Part shown: positions 33,765 to 48,313 of the stretch, piece by piece
Position numbering within the stretch: the stretch's first letter is position 1
How the letters are laid out: each line of letters begins with the position of its first letter
NCBI RefSeq assembly: GCF_030814715.1
Contig: NZ_JAUSVO010000003.1
Location: forward strand, 248,001 to 312,000
Source of the DNA: Kaistia dalseonensis
GTDB lineage: Bacteria > Pseudomonadota > Alphaproteobacteria > Rhizobiales > Kaistiaceae
Length of the DNA: 64,000 bases
Direction of reading: 5' to 3'
Translations under genes and position numbers: made by a program
The notes under the pieces: model-generated
The model's database searches: none
The model's input: the letters and a program-made list of their open reading frames with translations, nothing else
Told to the model about the DNA's origin: nothing

Positions 33765-34121
33765 TCATCGCCGCAGATCCGCAAGGAACATCAAGGCGCG
33801 CTGCCCGGCGTTCGCGCCAGCCAGACCGAACGCCATCAGCGCATTGCCGCGAATGCGAATGCCGTGGCGTCGTGCGTAGCGGAAGACTTCCGCGTAATGC
33901 TTCCGGTGGATCGTGTTGCGGATGGGCCGGCCGTTTTCGTCATGCGGTCCACCAAGCGATGCCCACTCGGCGCGGATCATCGGTCCGATGCGCCGCAGCG
34001 CGGCACCGCTATTGATGGGTGTCTCGCCGACCATGTTCGATTGCCGGATACGGAGCATCTCCTGGTAGAGCGCACCGCCATTGGGCAGCGACAGGAGAAG
34101 GGTAACGGGGCCGAGGGTCAT
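33765..34121 (-). CDS. Early protein, function unknown
   Basis: A 118-residue protein directly downstream of the Cro gene, with a 4-base overlap. Helix-rich with RRIGPMIRAEWASLGGPHD and a basic second half (NTIHRKHYAEVFRYARRHGI). It may bind nucleic acid. No named family. Confidence 0.55.
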   Translation of the reverse strand: MTLGPVTLLLSLPNGGALYQEMLRIRQSNMVGETPINSGAALRRIGPMIRAEWASLGGPHDENGRPIRNTIHRKHYAEVFRYARRHGIRIRGNALMAFGLAGANAGQRALMFLADLRR

Positions 34122-34333
34122 GATGCGGCGCGCTCCTCGCGCGGGTAGAGGTCCGGGCGAAGGTCGTGGCGGGAGATCCCGGTGATCCGCTCCACTTCAA
34201 GGACGCGTTCAGCCGGCACGTGCTTTTGTGCCCATCGGGTCACAGTGGCCTTGTTGACCGATACGGCTCGAGCCACGTCGATCAACCGAAGCCCGCGCGG
34301 GGCGAGAAGAGAGGCGAGATTGATGTCGGTCAT
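34118..34333 (-). CDS. Cro-type regulator (YdaS family)
   Basis: A 71-residue HTH protein from ATG 34333. LRLIDVARAVSVNKATVTRW is the helix-turn-helix and VLEVERITGISRHDLRPDLYP the diagnostic YdaS/Cro C-terminus. As first gene of the leftward early operon it should repress the repressor gene and start lytic growth. The promoter at 34370-34342 ends 9 bases before the ATG, so its mRNA has almost no leader. Confidence 0.85.
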   Translation of the reverse strand: MTDINLASLLAPRGLRLIDVARAVSVNKATVTRWAQKHVPAERVLEVERITGISRHDLRPDLYPREERAAS

Positions 34334-34341
34334 GACGACAG

Positions 34342-34370
34342 ATGTTGCATGAAACACAACTCGTCGTCAA
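34342..34370 (-). promoter_or_regulatory. Leftward early promoter with operator
   Basis: Reading leftward: TTGACG (34370-34365), a 17-bp spacer, CAACAT (34347-34342). The 17-bp operator GTTGTGTTTCATGCAAC (34360-34344, GTTG-N9-CAAC) fills most of the spacer and the -10 box. An identical unit is found at 36927-36955. A related GTTG-N7-CAAC sits at 34423-34437 over the start codon of the repressor gene. Confidence 0.72.
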
Positions 34371-35307: not shown

Positions 35308-35819
35308 CAAGATCCGGTCTCCTTTCGGTTCCCGCTCTCTTCTGCGAGCTTCGCGGCTACCGCATCTTCCAGCGTGTCGTCGATGTTCTTCATGTAGGGG
35401 CGATGATCGTCGAGGAACTTCCGGAAACCTTCGTTTTTCACTGTCCCGTCCGGTATCACCTTGGCCTCGTGTGCGATGAGCCAAAGATCAGCCTCCCGGA
35501 ACGACGACTTGAGCGTGTTCCGCTTTTTGCCTCTGGCAATAGAGATCATCTTGGGCACGCCCGGATAGGCGCCGAATAGATCGGGGCCGCTTGTCGTCAT
35601 CGTCGCGCGCCGTTTGCGGCCGCCAACCTCGTTCGCGAGCTTGATCAGTGCGATATTGATCAACTGCGGAGCGAGCGCCTTGATGTCGTCTGCATTACGG
35701 GCTTTCAGCCCAGCGATTGCATCGGCATTGGAGACTTCTCCGTCGACCTTTGCCCCTATTTCCATCATGATCTTTTCGAGAGCATTGCGAAGACTGCTCA
35801 GTGTCGAGCTATTTGACAT
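35307..35819 (-). CDS. ParB-operon protein, function unknown
   Basis: A 170-residue protein from ATG 35819 (MSNSSTLSSLRNALEKIM), overlapping the ParB stop by 11 bases. Basic centre (EVGGRKRRATMTTSGPD) and acidic C-terminus. Helical. Because it is always translated with ParB here it may be a partner, but no ParA-like ATPase motif is present. Confidence 0.52.
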   Translation of the reverse strand: MSNSSTLSSLRNALEKIMMEIGAKVDGEVSNADAIAGLKARNADDIKALAPQLINIALIKLANEVGGRKRRATMTTSGPDLFGAYPGVPKMISIARGKKRNTLKSSFREADLWLIAHEAKVIPDGTVKNEGFRKFLDDHRPYMKNIDDTLEDAVAAKLAEESGNRKETGS

Positions 35820-36861
35820 GGACGCGCCACTCCTTTGCAAAGCGATTCAGCCAATCTACAGCATTTTCGAGGTTAGCCAGGATGGTTGGAGCCTGCCACC
35901 GATCGATATTTCGGGCGACTTCCGCAGGCGAGAGCTTGTTCGCTCCAAGATTAGCGATGGCATAGGTCGCGCGGCTGCACTCCCCGGCGATGAGGCTCCG
36001 TTCCTTCCGCCCGTCCCGTTCATCTCTCTCCGCAGCTTTCTGACTTGCGCTCTTAGGAGGCTGCATCGATCCGTCGTCGGCGCGCACCTGGCCGCCGAGC
36101 AGCGCGCCGATGGTGGCGGCCGTCTCCCTATCCGGCCGCCTTCCATGTTTCAGGACATAGTCGGTGTAGGCGCTGCTTCCGTAAACGGCGACGGAGTGCT
36201 CGGTGTCGGCAATGAGCTGGCGCGTGGCCTCTTCACGCTTCTCTGCAGCATCGGCTTCGGTGGGGCCGGTGACCGCCGCGACCTGTTCTCTGGCCGGGAG
36301 GTTGACCAGTTCGGCAGCCTTTGAGATCGAGATCTCACCGGCATCCATCTTCTCGACGACTTTGGGGGCGCCGAATTGCACGACCTTGGCGGTACGCTCC
36401 ATTTGCTGGTGCGATGAAAAGCCCGCGGCCTTTGCAGCGATATCTCGAGACTTGGTGCCGGTTGGAAATTGTGCCCGATTGGGCACATTTTCTTTCCCTT
36501 GCAGTTTTGAAATTGCTGGCCTAGGTCGCCCGCGGCGCTCACCAAGCTTGCGCTCAACCGCCTCGGCAATCGCTATCCGCTCGCTCGGCGTGAACGCCCG
36601 CCGCATCTCGTTTTCGGCATATTCGCCTTCGAGGATGCTGGTGACATTGACGATCCGGCAGTCGATCTCATTCCATTTCAGATAGGCCTCACAAGCGCGC
36701 ATGCGGCGCTCGCCGAAGACGAGAACCTTGTCCTCCGTGATGCCGATCGGCTGCAAGAGACCCTGTTCCCGAATGTTTTCAGCCAGCGCTTTCAGGTCCC
36801 CCATATCCTTGCGGTGGCGCTCGCCGACGGCGATTTCCGCGATCTTCACCATCATGCCCAT
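35809..36861 (-). CDS. ParB/Spo0J-family DNA-binding protein
   Basis: A 350-residue protein from ATG 36861, which has GGAG at good spacing; a GTG at 36888 is weaker. Residues about 10-100 are the ParB/Srx domain (MGDLKALAENIREQGLLQPIG, VFGERRMRACEAY). NEMRRAFTPSERIAIAEAV continues it. The HTH part is about 140-180. No parA is next to it. It may silence or segregate phage DNA, or act as a regulator. A palindrome at 38722-38747 could be a binding site. Confidence 0.8.
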   Translation of the reverse strand: MGMMVKIAEIAVGERHRKDMGDLKALAENIREQGLLQPIGITEDKVLVFGERRMRACEAYLKWNEIDCRIVNVTSILEGEYAENEMRRAFTPSERIAIAEAVERKLGERRGRPRPAISKLQGKENVPNRAQFPTGTKSRDIAAKAAGFSSHQQMERTAKVVQFGAPKVVEKMDAGEISISKAAELVNLPAREQVAAVTGPTEADAAEKREEATRQLIADTEHSVAVYGSSAYTDYVLKHGRRPDRETAATIGALLGGQVRADDGSMQPPKSASQKAAERDERDGRKERSLIAGECSRATYAIANLGANKLSPAEVARNIDRWQAPTILANLENAVDWLNRFAKEWRVHVK

Positions 36862-36902
36862 GGCTATCTCCGGCGTTGGTTTCGTCACTCAAGTAGCACT
36901 GC

Positions 36903-36955
36903 GTTGTTTTTCATGCAACTTTCGACTTGACGGATAGTTGTGTTTCATGCAACAT
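36903..36955 (+). promoter_or_regulatory. Rightward early promoter with two operators
   Basis: TTGACG (36927-36932), 17-bp spacer, CAACAT (36950-36955). Operator O1 GTTGTGTTTCATGCAAC (36937-36953) is identical to that at 34344-34360, and O2 GTTGTTTTTCATGCAAC (36903-36919) differs at one base. The two are 34 bp apart, about three helical turns, so bound dimers could cooperate. O2 may also cover a promoter for the ParB operon on the other strand. Confidence 0.7.
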
Positions 36956-36994
36956 ATTTTCCATCAGCCGCCCACCGGCGCGATGGAGCCTCGA

Positions 36995-37741
36995 ATGACC
37001 AACTCCCCCGAAACTGATTGGCTTACCGACGCGAATGGCAACCGCTGTTCGATCTCATGGTTTGGCAGCCGTGAGGCAGCGCAGGCCGCACTCGATAGCC
37101 TGAAGAACTGTCGCGATTGCACCAACTGCTCGTACTGCTCGGGCTGCTCGGACTGCTCGGACTGCTCGTACTGCTCGCGCTGCTCGGACTGCTCGGACTG
37201 CTCGCGCTGCTCGGACTGCTCGGACTGCTCGTACTGCTCGCGCTGCTCGGACTGCTCGGACTGCTCGGACTGCTCGGACTGCTCGTACTGCTCGCGCTGC
37301 TCGGACTGCTCGGACTGCTCGGACTGCTCGGACTGCTCGGACTGCTCGTACTGCTCGCGCTGCTCGGACTGCTCGGGCTGCTCGGTCTGCTCGGGCAAGA
37401 AAGGCAAGTCCAGCGATTTTGCGCCGCCTGTCATCCCGGCGATCGAAAACATCCATGCTCGCGTTCTGGAGGCCGTCTCGCAACCCAATGCGCTCGATAT
37501 GGGTAGTTGGCATACCTGCAACACGACGCACTGCCGGGCAGGATGGGTCGTGCATCTGGCCGGCGAAGCCGGATATGCGCTGGAGCGGTTCCACGGCACG
37601 GCCCTTGCCGCCCAACTGATCTATCGGGCCAGCAACCCTGACCTGCCTGTAAGCCCGACGCGGTTCTACGAGACCAATGATGAGGCTCTGGCCGACATGC
37701 GCCGCATGGCGGAGGCCGAAGCTGCGCAGAAGGTGGTCTGA
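36995..37741 (+). CDS. Cys-x-x triplet-repeat protein with C-terminal HCRAGW domain
   Basis: A 248-residue protein from ATG 36995 (GGAG 6 bases before). Residues 1-38 are ordinary. Residues 39-134 are 32 consecutive Cys-x-x triplets: mainly CSD with interspersed CSY-CSR pairs, then CSG-CSV-CSG. Residues 135-248 form a separate domain with WHTCNTTHCRAGWVVHLAGE, which recurs in phage proteins without known function. One third of the repeat is Cys, so metal or Fe-S binding, disulphide ladders or a beta-solenoid are possible. It is the first gene behind the repressed rightward promoter, so it should be expressed at once on induction. Confidence 0.78.
   Translation: MTNSPETDWLTDANGNRCSISWFGSREAAQAALDSLKNCRDCTNCSYCSGCSDCSDCSYCSRCSDCSDCSRCSDCSDCSYCSRCSDCSDCSDCSDCSYCSRCSDCSDCSDCSDCSDCSYCSRCSDCSGCSVCSGKKGKSSDFAPPVIPAIENIHARVLEAVSQPNALDMGSWHTCNTTHCRAGWVVHLAGEAGYALERFHGTALAAQLIYRASNPDLPVSPTRFYETNDEALADMRRMAEAEAAQKVV
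37109..37396 (+). repeat. 9-bp tandem repeat within the Cys-triplet gene
   Basis: Thirty-two 9-bp units, all but the first few reading TGCTCGnnC. Cys is always TGC and Ser always TCG after unit 2. Units group as CSY-CSR followed by 2, 2, 2, 4, 5 or 1 CSD copies, showing expansion of a larger unit. All six frames are open through the repeat. Slippage should change length in 9-bp steps without frame loss. Confidence 0.9.
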
Positions 37742-39049: not shown

Positions 39050-39630
39050 CGAAGCCGCTTTTTGATGTGTTCCGCGCCACGATGATGGAGATCGCGGCCG
39101 GATCTCGCAAGGAAGCGCAGGACGCTTTCGTGGCCAAGATGAAGGCCGACCCGGCCTATCTCGATCTTCTTGCCGTCGACTATTTCGAGCGCATGGCGGC
39201 CGTCCACACCGTCCATACCGAAGTGCCTGACAGTGTCGCATTCGGACGCACGGGCGTGTCGCAGGACAAGGTTGAGCGCCTGAGCCGTCCGCGCGGCGAG
39301 CCTGTTGCCATTGCTCTGGTACGGAGGAACAGGGAGGAGACGGCCGCCCGCACAGCCGCCGTCATCGCCGAGGTGCGGGCCAACATCCGCAGCGTCATTT
39401 TGCTCGATCTTGTGCTGCCCAACGGCAAGGCGCTTCGCGACTGTACTGGCGCCGAGTGCATCAAGGCTGGCGGCTTCTTTGAGGCTGTCGGCAAGTCGAT
39501 CAAGGGATCGCAGGTCGTCGACAAGCACCTGACTGAGGCCGACCTCCAGAACATCAAGGCGCGCTTCTTCCAAGCCAATATCTCCGATCGTGGCAGCAAG
39601 CGCTCCGACGACAAGCGGAAACGGGCGTGA
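39046..39630 (+). CDS. Conserved early protein, function unknown
   Basis: A 194-residue helical protein (MTKPLFDVFRATMMEIAAG). The middle (IRSVILLDLVLPNGKALRDC, GAECIKAGGFFEAVGKSIKG) is recurrent in Rhizobiales prophages. Basic C-terminus KRSDDKRKRA. It overlaps its neighbours by 4 bases. Recombination-related function is possible from its position. Confidence 0.6.
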   Translation: MTKPLFDVFRATMMEIAAGSRKEAQDAFVAKMKADPAYLDLLAVDYFERMAAVHTVHTEVPDSVAFGRTGVSQDKVERLSRPRGEPVAIALVRRNREETAARTAAVIAEVRANIRSVILLDLVLPNGKALRDCTGAECIKAGGFFEAVGKSIKGSQVVDKHLTEADLQNIKARFFQANISDRGSKRSDDKRKRA

Positions 39631-39632
39631 CC

Positions 39633-39860
39633 ATGACTGGCGATACCCTCATAACCCTGGTCATCTTCGGTTCGCTCTGCGCCCTCGCCCTCGCCATCGT
39701 GCTCCGCATCCATGGCGATTTCACCGCCGCGCGCGCCGAAGACGAGCCGACCAGCGAGATCATCGAGGACGAAGACGAGGCCGATCCCGTCTATCCGTTC
39801 CGTCGCATCGGCCCGGTTGCGGCCGATGTCGTGGAAGATCTCGGCGGGAGGCGGTCATGA
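39633..39860 (+). CDS. Small membrane protein
   Basis: A 75-residue protein from ATG 39633. One N-terminal membrane helix (TLVIFGSLCALALAIVL) and an acidic cytoplasmic or periplasmic tail (EIIEDEDEADPVYPF). Overlaps the exonuclease start by 4 bases. No family recognised. Confidence 0.55.
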   Translation: MTGDTLITLVIFGSLCALALAIVLRIHGDFTAARAEDEPTSEIIEDEDEADPVYPFRRIGPVAADVVEDLGGRRS

Positions 39861-40843
39861 GGTTCCGCGTTCCCGCCTCCGTCGAGATCGTCAAGCCGAA
39901 GAGCCGCGATGCGTGGCTTGCCGCGCGCCGGCCGAATATCGGTGCCAGCGCTGCAGGTGGTCTGCTCGGCGTCCACTCCTACTACACGCCGTTCCAGCTT
40001 TACGGCCTCAAGAGCGGCACGATTGCGGATGACCAGAGCGACAATCCGGCGATGGAGCGCGGACGAGATCTTGAAGAGGTCGCCCTTAACCGCGTCCGCC
40101 GCGCGAACCCGCTATGGAACGTTATCAGCAATCCGATGCCAGGCGGGAAGATGTTCGTCGATCGGATGGCCCGGCTATCATCGACGCCAGACGCGTTCGT
40201 GGTTGACCCGCAGCGCCCCGGCACCGGGGTCCTGCAGATCAAGACGGTCTATCCGCACATCTTCCGCGATCAGTGGCTTGACCCGGACACGAGAGACGTC
40301 ATCCCGCCCCTTTGGGTGAGCGTCCAGGCCATCCTTGACGGCTATTTCAGCGGCGCATCATGGGCCGCTGTCGGAGCCTTAGTCGGCTTCGATCTGGATC
40401 TCTACGTCGTCGATGTCCCGATCCATACCGGGGTGGTTCAGCGCGTCTATGACGCCGCCGCCCGGTTCTGGCGCATGGTCGAGGCAGGCACCGCGCCCGA
40501 TCCCGACTTCGCCCGCGACGGCGAGGCGCTCGCCGCAATGTTCGGCCAGGACGATGGCCAGACGATCGATCTTTCCGGCGACAACGCGCTGCCTGTGCTG
40601 GTCGACGAGCATGAACGTCTTGTCGGCGAGAAGAGCGCCGCCGATCGCCGCCTGAAAGAGATCAAGGCCGAATTCATTTCCAAGCTCGGTACGGCCGCCG
40701 CCGCGCGCCTCGCCGACGGCCGCGTCATCACCGCCAAGACCGTTCACCGCGACGCCTATGCGGTGGCGCCCTCCTCCTACCGATCCATCCGCATCAAGGC
40801 CGCGCCGATCCATTCGGTCGCCGCATACCAGGGAGAATTCTGA
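39857..40843 (+). CDS. YqaJ-type phage exonuclease
   Basis: A 328-residue PD-(D/E)xK nuclease. Motifs: AAGGLLGVHSYYTPFQLY, NPAMERGRDLEEVAL, STPDAFVVDP with the metal-binding Asp, and LQIKTVYPHIF, where the usual E-x-K is Q-I-K. SVQAILDGYFSGA is the later Q/Y motif. The C-terminal 80 residues form a coiled coil with EHERLVGEKSAADRRLKEI. It resects dsDNA for annealing by the 41618-42847 product. Confidence 0.82.
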   Translation: MRFRVPASVEIVKPKSRDAWLAARRPNIGASAAGGLLGVHSYYTPFQLYGLKSGTIADDQSDNPAMERGRDLEEVALNRVRRANPLWNVISNPMPGGKMFVDRMARLSSTPDAFVVDPQRPGTGVLQIKTVYPHIFRDQWLDPDTRDVIPPLWVSVQAILDGYFSGASWAAVGALVGFDLDLYVVDVPIHTGVVQRVYDAAARFWRMVEAGTAPDPDFARDGEALAAMFGQDDGQTIDLSGDNALPVLVDEHERLVGEKSAADRRLKEIKAEFISKLGTAAAARLADGRVITAKTVHRDAYAVAPSSYRSIRIKAAPIHSVAAYQGEF

Positions 40844-43686: not shown

Positions 43687-44156
43687 CGCAGCCCTTCCTG
43701 ATCGGCGAAGGCTGGATCGAAGTGCGCGACGGGGACGCCAGCGCCCGCGCGATGTTCGAGCGCCACTACAGCGCGCAACGCAATCTTCTGCGCCGACGCG
43801 CGCGACGGACGAAGCTGATTGTCGGCCCGGGCTTCAAGCTGGTCTTAATCCGAGCTGATGCGGCTTCCGTGTGCGCTTGGCGCAAGGCCATCCGTGACGA
43901 TGGACAGACAGGCGTGGAATGCACGGTCTATCGCCGCGAGCAAGGCGAACTGGCGAGCGACCTGCTCCGCAGCGCCATGGCGATCGTGTGGGACCGGTGG
44001 CCCGGCGAAAGGCTGTTCACCTTTGTAGACCCGATGCTGGTGAAGCCGACCATTCGTACCGGCCGTCCGACCTGGGGCCACTGCTTCTATCTCGCCGGAT
44101 GGCGCTTCGCCGGCATTAGCAAGAAGCGCTTTCACATCCTCGAGGCGACGCCATGA
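43683..44156 (+). CDS. GNAT-fold protein, Mom-like
   Basis: A 157-residue protein from ATG 43683. ARAMFERHYSAQRNLL begins the fold and WPGERLFTFVDPMLVKPTI with GHCFYLAGWRFAGISKKRF ends it, resembling the final strands of phage GNAT proteins related to Mu Mom (YVNP...CFKKAGWR). Mom modifies adenine in DNA. If this is similar, it could protect phage DNA. The link is based on the pattern only. Confidence 0.52.
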   Translation: MTQPFLIGEGWIEVRDGDASARAMFERHYSAQRNLLRRRARRTKLIVGPGFKLVLIRADAASVCAWRKAIRDDGQTGVECTVYRREQGELASDLLRSAMAIVWDRWPGERLFTFVDPMLVKPTIRTGRPTWGHCFYLAGWRFAGISKKRFHILEATP

Positions 44157-46558: not shown

Positions 46559-46740
46559 TGTCTCTTCGCCAACCCTTGCAGGATCCGGCGAAGGAGGCGT
46601 TAATCACCTTCGTTCGAGCCTTGGCGAGACGCCAGGCACGGCTGGATGCGATAGAGGCCGGCGAGGCGACAGAGGAAGATTTCCATGAGCGGGCGGCGGG
46701 CGGTAACCTACGCCAGATTTTCAACGGAGCTGCAAAGTGA
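46558..46740 (+). CDS. Small helical protein upstream of the integrase
   Basis: A 60-residue protein from ATG 46558 (TGATG overlap). EALITFVRALARRQARLDAI is a basic helix and ATEEDFHERAAGGN an acidic end. It overlaps the integrase start by 56 bases, so both are translated from one RNA. Proteins of this kind precede serine recombinases in other Rhizobiales prophages; a recombination directionality factor is possible but untested. Confidence 0.58.
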   Translation: MSLRQPLQDPAKEALITFVRALARRQARLDAIEAGEATEEDFHERAAGGNLRQIFNGAAK

Positions 46741-48280
46741 TCGCTCGATCGAGGATCAACAGGCACTCTGCCATGCTTACGCCACCCGGAACAGCCTGAC
46801 GGTCATTGCCGACTATGCCGATCGCGCCCGCTCCGGCGCATCGATTATCGGCCGCGAAGGCCTGATCGCCATGATGGAGGCAGCCCGCGACCGGCACTTT
46901 GACGTGCTGGTCGTCGAAGCGCTCGACCGCATTTCCCGCGACATGGAGGATCTGGCGGCGCTGCATAAGCGACTGAGCTTCGCCGGCATTGACATCGTGG
47001 CCGTGCATGAGGGCAAGGCCGATACGCTGACGATCGGCCTGCGCGGCCTCATTGGCCAGATGTTTCGTGAGGACAATGTCCATAAGGTGCGCCGCGGTAT
47101 GGCTGGCGTGGTCCGCGATGGCCGCCACGCTGGCGGTCGCGCCTATGGCTATCGGCCGATCGCGGGGCGCCCCGGCGAGCTCGAGATCGTCGAGACCGAG
47201 GCTGCTATCATCCGCCAGATCTTCGAGGCCTATGCGGCAGGGGAATCGCCCCGCGCGATTGCCGGCCGGCTCAATGCGGAGGGCGTCCCGCCGCCGCGCG
47301 GCCAGCGCTGGAACGCATCGACGATCAACGGATCGCGACAGCGCGCCACGGGCATTATCCAGAACGCGCTCTATGGCGGCGAGATTGTATGGAATCGCGT
47401 GCGCATGGTGCGTGATCCGGAAACGGGGCGTCGCGTCTCTCGCATGAATGCCGAGGACGAATTCCAGCGCGCGCCGGCTCCGCATCTGAAGATCATAGAC
47501 GACGACATTGTCCGCTTGGCACGCAATCGGAAACTGTCGCGGTCGACGCAACAGCCGCGCGGCCGACAGTCAAAGCGCCTCCTGTCTGGGCTGCTGCGCT
47601 GTGGCGCATGTGGCGGCGGCATGACGTCGGTTGGCAGCGATCGAGTCGGCCATCGCGTCATGTGCTCGACGCATAGGGAGAGCGGCGCATGCGAGAACAG
47701 CGCGCGCTATTACGTCGAGAAGATCGAGGCGGCAGTGCTTCGCGGGCTCGGCCATGCGCTGGCGGATCCAGAGCTCGTGCGCGCCTATGTGGAAGCCTAT
47801 CGCGAGGAGCGGCAGCGGGCGGCGGCCCATGCGCGCAATCGCCGGGCAGGGATCGAGCGGCGCATTGCCGACGCCGGCAGCGCCCTCGCGCGCCTCGTTG
47901 ACGCCGTAGCGGATGGCATGCTGACCAAAGAGGATGTTGCCGATCGAACAGCGGCGTTGCGTCAGCAAAAGCGCGAGGCAGAGGCGGAACTTGCCCTTGC
48001 GGCCGAGCCGACCAAGGTTGTCGAGCTTCATCCCCAGGCCATTCGGCGCTTTGCCGAAAATATCCAGACGCTCGGCGATGTCCTGACGGCGCGAGGCCAA
48101 CCCGATCAGGCCATGATCGCGCAGTTCCGACAACTTGTTGAGAGTGTCGTGGTCTCGCCACGAAAGGCCGGAGAACCCTACGAAGTATGGCCCATGGGCC
48201 ACCTCGCCGCCCTGATGGGGCTGTCGGCCGAATTGGTGGTAGCGGAGGAGGGACTTGAACCCCCGACACGCGGATTATGA
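46685..48280 (+). CDS. Large serine recombinase (phage integrase)
   Basis: A 531-residue protein. The catalytic domain (1-150) has TYARFSTELQSDRS with Ser13 and DRISRD. A recombinase domain follows (about 155-260; GRAYGYRPIAGRPGEL, INGSRQRATGIIQNALYGG). The zinc ribbon has Cys306, Cys309, Cys327 and Cys336. A coiled coil covers about 370-430. The last ~14 residues (VVAEEGLEPPTRGL) are encoded by the antisense of the tRNA-Met gene, with the stop inside the anticodon arm. It catalyses integration at the tRNA and, with a partner, excision. Confidence 0.92.
   Translation: MSGRRAVTYARFSTELQSDRSIEDQQALCHAYATRNSLTVIADYADRARSGASIIGREGLIAMMEAARDRHFDVLVVEALDRISRDMEDLAALHKRLSFAGIDIVAVHEGKADTLTIGLRGLIGQMFREDNVHKVRRGMAGVVRDGRHAGGRAYGYRPIAGRPGELEIVETEAAIIRQIFEAYAAGESPRAIAGRLNAEGVPPPRGQRWNASTINGSRQRATGIIQNALYGGEIVWNRVRMVRDPETGRRVSRMNAEDEFQRAPAPHLKIIDDDIVRLARNRKLSRSTQQPRGRQSKRLLSGLLRCGACGGGMTSVGSDRVGHRVMCSTHRESGACENSARYYVEKIEAAVLRGLGHALADPELVRAYVEAYREERQRAAAHARNRRAGIERRIADAGSALARLVDAVADGMLTKEDVADRTAALRQQKREAEAELALAAEPTKVVELHPQAIRRFAENIQTLGDVLTARGQPDQAMIAQFRQLVESVVVSPRKAGEPYEVWPMGHLAALMGLSAELVVAEEGLEPPTRGL
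48237..48280. other. Prophage attachment site (right end)
   Basis: The 3' part of tRNA-Met overlaps the last codons and stop of the integrase gene. The phage lies on the left side, so crossover must have taken place in this segment or just left of it. The matching copy of the core should be left of position 1. The exact crossover point cannot be seen from one end. Confidence 0.7.
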
Positions 48281-48313
48281 TTCCGCTGCTCTAACCAGCT
48301 GAGCTACTCCGCC
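48237..48313 (-). tRNA. tRNA-Met (CAT), elongator type
   Basis: A 77-nt cloverleaf with encoded CCA (48239-48237). Anticodon loop ATCATAA carries CAT and the stem is GCGGA/TCCGC, not the GGG/CCC of initiators. The D arm GCTCAGCTGGTTAGAGC and T arm GGGGGTTCAAGTCCC, read without break, are canonical. Its own promoter lies at 48396-48367. The prophage joins at its 3' side and leaves the gene intact. Confidence 0.93.

Follow-up and report, generated by a model that had tools for sequence, protein, structure and literature searches.

A cysteine-triplet array in a prophage gene of Kaistia dalseonensis as a candidate third class of swappable phage solenoid

What kind of protein carries a cysteine at every third residue over 32 unbroken triplets, and what might a prophage do with it? 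The question is raised by a gene in the window, i.e. the 64,000-nt stretch of Kaistia dalseonensis DNA analysed here as a whole. The gene (36995–37741, + strand; 248 aa by translation) comprises an N-terminal cap, a Cys-x-x array of 32 triplets, a linker and a C-terminal domain, D1, and is preceded by a GGAG (36985–36988, +), by its sequence a likely ribosome binding site, 6 nt before the ATG. The type A cap (residues 1–38, WLTDANGNRCSISWFGSREAAQAALDSLKN; 36995–37108, +) was delimited from an alignment of 61 sequences, window included, and D1 (residues 148–248; 37436–37738, +) from alignments A1 and A2. Between them, the array (residues 39–134; 37109–37396, +; 32 units of 9 nt) was defined by translation, unit listing and Tandem Repeats Finder. 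The run of 32 consecutive triplets reported by a first-pass annotation of this DNA was borne out: Cys stands at residues 39, 42 … 132 of the translation, and a 9-nt repeat was called at 37125–37394 (30 copies, score 414). Nearly all units had been described as CSD, CSY or CSR, and these types indeed make up 26 of the 32 (16, 5 and 5, respectively), the remainder being CRD, CTN, three CSG and one CSV.

A PHROGs profile search returned one strongly matching family of unknown function for each of the two parts that the first-pass annotation had proposed to search separately. Cap and array (residues 10–136) matched phrog_15341 (E 1.4e-21), a profile of capped Cys arrays to which PHROGs attaches no function, and the C-terminal part (residues 147–245) matched positions 149–250 of phrog_31265 (E 3.7e-32). 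The window protein is thus a member of phrog_15341 by a profile match across cap and array, and of the D1 family by its profile match and its row in alignment A2, where the motif W-H-x-C-x2-T-H-C-R-x-G-W is invariant; in alignment A1, H-x-C-x(3)-H-C is invariant and the R nearly so. The repeat is joined to a conserved phage domain (THCRAGW), as had been claimed. No Pfam family matched at E 1, which leaves the protein outside PF00132 (hexapeptide) and PF18836 (YdcK beta-solenoid); one repeat-family definition used in these Pfam-based tests was taken from PMC8145042. Likewise, no match was obtained above cut-off in NCBIfam or at E 0.1 among PADLOC defence-protein profiles, and the best match of D1 to a solved structure had an E value of 0.06. 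To our knowledge, no member of the Cys-array family has been subjected to a functional assay.

The gene is a member of a large phage family, carried by viral contigs, prophages and a few named phages. A scan of viral sequences found 166 relatives and a second one, with the C-terminal domain, 381, the best 80 of each being fetched; the best 80 of the 381 comprised 37 pentapeptide proteins, 34 Cys arrays and 9 other or cut proteins. A species-genome scan added 35 loci, many from metagenome bins; the records bear the names of Alphaproteobacteria, Bacteroidota, Acidobacteria, Patescibacteria and other groups. Homologues with Cys-every-third repeats, on whose existence the first-pass annotation had staked its reading, are numerous (133 arrays). 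Within its own genome the Cys-array protein had one match, and 0 of the 10 same-genus genomes listed in an order-wide scan matched, as fits a mobile prophage gene. That scan matched 16 of 397 genomes; by listed coordinates, four matches cover D1 (window included) and two further ones are array pieces at contig ends, and the rest were taken for low-complexity matches. A count of phrog_31265 in same-family genomes (19/28) was discarded: 8/14 control genomes matched too, and of the 11 loci (out of 30) that were read, in + frames only, one (L118) is a real relative and ten have no Cys array or D1.

Among 50,697 GenBank phage records, a BLAST search, which masks low-complexity repeats, matched the whole protein once, to Flavobacterium phage FL-1 (58%, with one third of the query covered), and a search with the cap peptide additionally found Vibrio phage 1.238. 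Pfam holds no model for the Cys-triplet repeat, and both GenBank examples are annotated otherwise. In FL-1 (KY421186.2, L082:5485–6316), the array is annotated in another frame, as Ala-Pro-Val-Ala type repeats; its Cys-frame gene is broken by a frame change inside the head domain. Gene 68 of Vibrio phage 1.238.A (NC_055735.1, L402:4001–4375), annotated as an insect antifreeze protein, is a capped Cys array without a head domain, with Lys and Glu common between the Cys. In a Bosea sp. record (L091) the array is partly N, from an assembly gap or masking, so that such arrays may be under-counted. A literature search with little coverage of subscription journals and bioRxiv yielded no paper on a Cys-every-third repeat and, in line with the first-pass annotation, there appears to be no characterised protein of this arrangement in the literature and databases searched.

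The main new result is that the array is interchangeable with known beta-solenoids. Of the 163 classified rows of D1 (..H.C..THCRAGW), 120 have a Cys array before the head, 42 have pentapeptides and 1 has a hexapeptide helix (13 further rows, two of them the same sequence, were unclassified); ratios here and below reflect how loci were fetched and are not frequencies. D2 (GSR..CGCF) follows 11 Cys arrays (in L230, L373–L376 and others), 15 hexapeptide-type arrays and 8 pentapeptides in 34 classified rows, five of which (L316, L317, L387, L397, L399) were assigned to the hexapeptide class by hand, with 2 unclassified. Of the 38 classified rows of D3 (IGCQ-H), 32 have pentapeptides before the head, 5 have hexapeptide-type arrays and 1 has a Cys array (4 unclassified); a further D3 with a Cys array, in L352, has its array cut by the contig end. 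A fourth head, D4, was seen once, behind the Cys array of L231; searches with it found nothing among phages at E 0.001 and recovered only D4 itself as a relative. Comparison of D2 with D3, D1 with D3 and D2 with D4 by hhalign, a weak test in which each side had 1 to 20 sequences, gave no support for a relation between these heads.

The partner repeats were known solenoids in all seven proteins tested with Pfam: PF00805 repeats accompany D1 in L098 and L403 and D3 in L320 and L323, PF00132 repeats accompany D1 in L227, and repeats of PF18836 (YdcK beta solenoid) accompany D2 in L314 and D3 in L321. Published PHROG profiles span such fusions too, phrog_31265 covering pentapeptides plus D1 and phrog_7964 hexapeptides plus D2. 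On trees of the heads, the minimum numbers of repeat-type changes were 3 for D1, 6 for D2 and 4 for D3. Swapping is thus infrequent on the D1 tree, and on those of D2 and D3 the starred branches require no more than 1 change for each class examined, which leaves the true number of swaps uncertain.

Several loci show arrangements of their own, among them L102 and L117, two of the unclassified D1 rows. An LRR-like repeat (ITALPDGLxVGG) precedes D1 in L102:2-424 and D2 in L378; D1 in L117:5602-6294 follows an Ala/Trp/Arg-rich repeat (WAARAARAAW), possibly a further rod type; and D3 in L350 follows a repeat of the kind AGGWIEAGEGIKAG, for which no family match was made. The hexapeptide-type array before D2 in L399 has Cys at every sixth residue and a local stretch with Cys at every third. 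In L321:1128-1441 (MG592579.1), the hexapeptide-solenoid repeats with D3 are annotated as CRISPR spacers on the other strand.

Since the Cys array trades places with two solenoids before the same heads, it is most simply a solenoid itself. We give a probability of roughly 55% to the reading that Cys-x-x arrays are a third class of swappable solenoid, forming a rod in an early phage protein that has its Cys turned inward and binds a host factor. From N- to C-terminus, the protein would run through a short cap, the rod of Cys-x-x triplets and a helical head, with the rod standing in for the pentapeptide or hexapeptide (YdcK or LbH) beta-solenoids found before common heads. The fold and its in-out-out register we infer: each triplet would point its Cys inward and the two residues after it outward, in the manner of the 12-residue beetle antifreeze coils, so that the Cys residues form a core ladder and the third residue (D, G, R, N or Y) a fast-changing surface. 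For a stag-beetle antifreeze model built on Tenebrio 1EZG, residues C2, S5, C8 and A11 of the coil are given as inward in PMC8038014.

Array composition was tabulated over two sets. In 133 arrays of at least eight units, a set without shorter arrays and without L089, which leaves the triplet frame midway, Cys is missing from 10 of 4169 triplets. In 136 arrays of at least six units, with the frame-slipped L089 counted in (4247 triplets), Ser occupies position 2 of 3407 triplets, and the residue at position 3 is D (1589), G (1071), R (796), N (276), Y (257), S (89) or H (55), with E, K and Q totalling 34. Aromatic residues stand between the Cys in this set, Y, F or W at position 2 and Y at position 3. 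An all-Val/Pro Cys frame in L008/L243 was dropped before these counts. Among complete arrays with D1, the shortest has 6 triplets and the longest 59 (L024), with 65 in L089.

Such retention of Cys might be expected of a metal or Fe-S store, in which the 32 thiols would bind zinc, copper or clusters and the H-x-C-x3-H-C of the head a metal. The Cys is kept in 4159 of 4169 triplets while the neighbouring Ser is replaced about one time in five, the H, C, H and C of the head are invariant, and there are weak PDB matches to Cys-rich zinc-type chains (E 0.2–0.4). However, no metal-protein family was matched in Pfam or, above cut-off, in NCBIfam, and the aromatic residues between the Cys are not a known feature of metallothioneins. 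Moreover, Cys-poor pentapeptide or hexapeptide rods replace the array before the same head, and the array thiols are thus not needed for the shared role; we consider metal storage unlikely. Of the three ideas put forward by the first-pass annotation, the solenoid gained from the domain swapping with known solenoids, whereas the metal store or Fe-S binder and the redox scaffold drew no positive evidence from Pfam, NCBIfam, PDB or 78 loci. That annotation had missed the swapping of the repeat, its hypervariability and its frequent location among recombination genes.

The same annotation had placed the gene under direct prophage repression, behind a promoter with the operator of the Cro promoter. 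At zero mismatches, an exact-match scan found three copies of the operator GTTGNNTTTCATGCAAC in the 64 kb, one at the Cro-like promoter (34344–34360, −) and two before the Cys-array gene (GTTGTTTTTCATGCAAC, 36903–36919, +, and, nearest the gene, GTTGTGTTTCATGCAAC, 36937–36953, +); sites with at most three mismatches numbered 5, against 0.74 expected. A TTGACG, from its sequence a possible −35 element (36927–36932, +), lies 4 nt before the nearer copy, and the spacing is equal at the Cro-like gene. The shared operator was thus confirmed; with this as its basis, and a consensus scan finding no full sigma-70 promoter before the Cys-array gene, direct repression is what we infer. The Cro-like repressor gene itself (34118–34357, −) matched phrog_35, transcriptional repressor (E 1.1e-8). 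A ParB-like nuclease-family gene (35809–36888, −; phrog_12047, E 6.8e-41) lies divergent from the Cys-array gene, and the 106-nt spacer between the two contains both operator copies. Downstream lie an HNH-type gene (phrog_1271, E 2.9e-9), a RecE-like recombination exonuclease ORF of the early gene cluster (39590–40843, +; phrog_434, E 5.2e-48), an exonuclease-family gene and an integrase that matches DNA invertases as well. An integrase ORF at 46685–48313 overlaps at its end a tRNA-Met gene (48237–48313, −), a possible attachment site; the IMG/VR provirus containing the Cys-array gene seems to end near 44156, before this ORF.

Relatives occupy comparable surroundings. Among 150 neighbours, sampled from 165 chosen genes (+ strand, 130–450 aa, no more than three per locus), the most frequent Pfam families were ERF (7), YqaJ (5), RecT (4) and a helix-turn-helix family (4), counts that make up a minority of the 150; PHROGs added RecE-like, Bet-like and Sak4-like proteins and repressors. 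A pentapeptide cousin on a Bordetella plasmid lies near YqaJ genes as well. There is no conserved partner gene, the commonest neighbour cluster occurring in 8 of 78 loci. From the ERF, YqaJ, RecT and RecE-like neighbours, the family often sits in the early recombination region, where genes for proteins that act on or protect phage DNA are commonly located. Our best guess is a binder of a host factor met early in lytic growth: once the repressor is lost, the protein would be made early, near the phage recombination genes, and would bind a host factor that threatens or limits the phage, with head and rod surface setting the partner.

One such partner could be a host DNA-binding enzyme, e.g. gyrase, occupied by a negative rod that mimics DNA. 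Pentapeptide rods are among the replacements of the Cys array, and MfpA and Qnr are pentapeptide gyrase binders according to PMC10886550; the window array carries 17 acidic and 6 basic residues (net −11), and 96 of 136 arrays are net negative. Yet 31 of the 136 are net positive and 9 neutral, as a general mimic should not be, and replacement by hexapeptide rods does not suggest mimicry. The net-positive arrays led us to reject DNA mimicry as a single cause for all arrays; for the window protein it is possible, and as an explanation of the family we rate it as improbable.

Is the array a rod at all? The structure prediction called for by the first-pass annotation answered for the ends more than for the middle. 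AlphaFold placed the N-cap with confidence (strands at 9–11 and 17–19, helix at 26–34), and the D1 block reached pLDDT 77–98 in one model and 88–98 in the other, but the array was mostly below 50 (residues 64–133 in one model, 47–132 in the other). The first model has bridges on every third residue over 37–63 (block pLDDT 78–88 at 41–60), which are absent but for residue 43 from the second, a model that was made from the gap-free alignment A3 and was no better than the first. Foldseek found nothing better than E 4 in the PDB and, among viral models, three matches at E 0.02 or lower, none with a named function: an unnamed 74-residue protein (55% identical over 69 columns), an unnamed 176-residue protein and a 69-residue Campylobacter phage protein. 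Nor is a coil length visible in the sequences, as triplet number has no preference modulo 2 to 6, and autocorrelation, found at lags 1 to 9 for position 2 and weakly for position 3, has no single prominent lag (136 arrays).

Low confidence over the array, together with a length that runs from 6 to 59 triplets (65 in L089) and varies between otherwise identical loci, would suit a disordered or polyproline-type chain, i.e. a flexible spacer for which, Cys apart, length and sequence would be of little consequence. Yet 4159 of 4169 triplets keep a Cys that a free spacer could do without, and the array exchanges with rigid solenoids. Three unrelated-looking caps, moreover, precede Cys triplets in 46/46, 34/34 and 6/6 matches (86/86) and were not seen on other repeats, in a test biased by loci mostly fetched with the family. 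We therefore think a flexible chain distinctly unlikely.

The best PDB sequence match of the window protein by phmmer was Tenebrio antifreeze protein 1ezg (E 9e-5). The real array scored 169 in this alignment and 300 shuffles at most 113, but random arrays with Cys at every third residue averaged 141 (119, 85, 61, 48 and 49 for Cys at every 6th, 2nd, 4th, 5th and 7th, respectively). As Cys spacing alone can explain the score, the match is one of analogy, not descent. An insect Cys-rich antifreeze protein was rejected as an identity for the window protein, whose translation has no TCT motif.

If the rod is real, its surface seems to change fast. Within 131 arrays, the mean diversity of the nine unit bases was 0, 0, 0.02, 0.08, 0.17, 0.07, 0.44, 0.44 and 0.06, so that it is the first two bases of the third codon (7 and 8) that vary. 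Within an array there is next to no variation at the silent bases 3 and 6, whereas base 6 differs widely between arrays (0.63). Pentapeptide arrays (36) gave the same picture, with third codon bases at or below 0.045 and variation at fixed other bases, and 11 hexapeptide arrays a similar, less clean one (third codon bases 0.04 to 0.21). Near-identical loci differ in the array alone: L270 and L215 have 1 mismatch and one gap in 5,687 columns (28 vs 25 units), and L237 and L239 4 mismatches and one gap in 3,599 columns (37 vs 42 units), with all differences inside the array and identity outside it. In a third pair (L268 and L291, 30 vs 50 units) the flanks differ too. Length differences between metagenome contigs have to be read with the errors of repeat assembly in mind. 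One phage (L013:5001-6800, same contig as L244) carries two neighbouring Cys-array genes with different arrays of 46 and 53 units and post-array DNA that is 98% identical. Rapid reshuffling among a small number of unit types can produce the pattern, whether or not a diverse surface is selected for. At position 3, purine-ending Gly codons are rare in arrays (7/1057, against 298/845 after the array in the same frames), as are non-CGY Arg codons (6/791 against 357/687). This pyrimidine bias would be explained if G and R units arose from units with D, N or Y, whose codons require a pyrimidine; a constraint on the nucleic acid itself could also be its source.

A bolder reading would make the array a writable recognition rod, in which the order of units encodes the target through one variable residue per unit and phages rewrite it rapidly. 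The small alphabet of D, G, R, N, Y, H and S per three-residue unit would serve such a code, and whole 9-nt units would be gained, lost and shuffled, as are the much larger units of TAL-effector repeats. If this were so, the same scheme would hold for the pentapeptide and hexapeptide rods with common heads. We hold it to be very unlikely.

A precursor modified after translation, like the His-Xaa-Ser protein HxsA or other thiol peptides, was suggested by a weak NCBIfam match to HxsA4 (E 0.0049). Its score, 17.7 bits against the required 55, keeps the protein out of that family (NF038313), no conserved partner gene stands beside the family at the 78 loci, and no maturase appears in the 25 commonest of the 39 Pfam families among the 150 neighbours, which makes modification a highly improbable explanation.

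Finally, all six frames are stop-free inside the GC-rich window array, and an open frame there therefore proves nothing by itself. In 61 relatives, the Cys frame has no stop whatever and each of the other five has stops in some. A DNA-level repeat that is open by chance in all frames and not translated as Cys triplets, for which one could cite the six open frames of the window array, the FL-1 annotation in another frame and a last unit base that is a pyrimidine even for Gly and Arg, where none is required, is hardly credible when only the Cys frame is stop-free in all 61 relatives and in frame with the conserved domains that flank the array.

If the solenoid reading is right, these arrays are a repeat class with a three-residue unit and a core almost wholly of Cys; two other three-residue repeats, those of collagen and snow flea antifreeze protein, have glycine as their basis. 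The comparison also brings to light a class of modular phage proteins that set any of three repeat types before the same heads, the three having a common hypervariation signature. It raises the questions of which partners the D1, D2 and D3 heads bind and why rods of this kind are retained by temperate phages close to their recombination genes.

Known systems resemble the Cys-array protein to different degrees. TAL-effector repeats, near-identical 34-residue helical units that differ mainly at one defined variable site, share with it the principle of near-identical units with mainly one variable site each; with their helical fold and no sequence relation, the likeness is an analogy and carries no claim of nucleic acid binding. 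Beetle antifreeze protein (Tenebrio, 1ezg) likewise has Cys mostly at multiples of three residues, and PMC8038014 states a coil with every third residue inward for the model built on 1EZG. It differs in its 12-residue TCTxSxNCxxAx unit, where Ser and Ala fill two out of four inner places, and in being secreted, disulphide bonded and ice binding, without such caps or head. The hexapeptide (YdcK-type) phage protein of phrog_7964 (L314) has the D2 head of some Cys-array proteins and a similar variation pattern, but a PF18836 repeat, its own cap and another unit length. The pentapeptide protein of phrog_31265 (L098, L403) differs in its ADLSG-type pentapeptides, known to PF00805, in its other N-terminal cap and in having no Cys ladder, and shares with the window protein the D1 head, an array of variable length before it, the within-array pattern of variation and, at L403, YqaJ genes nearby.
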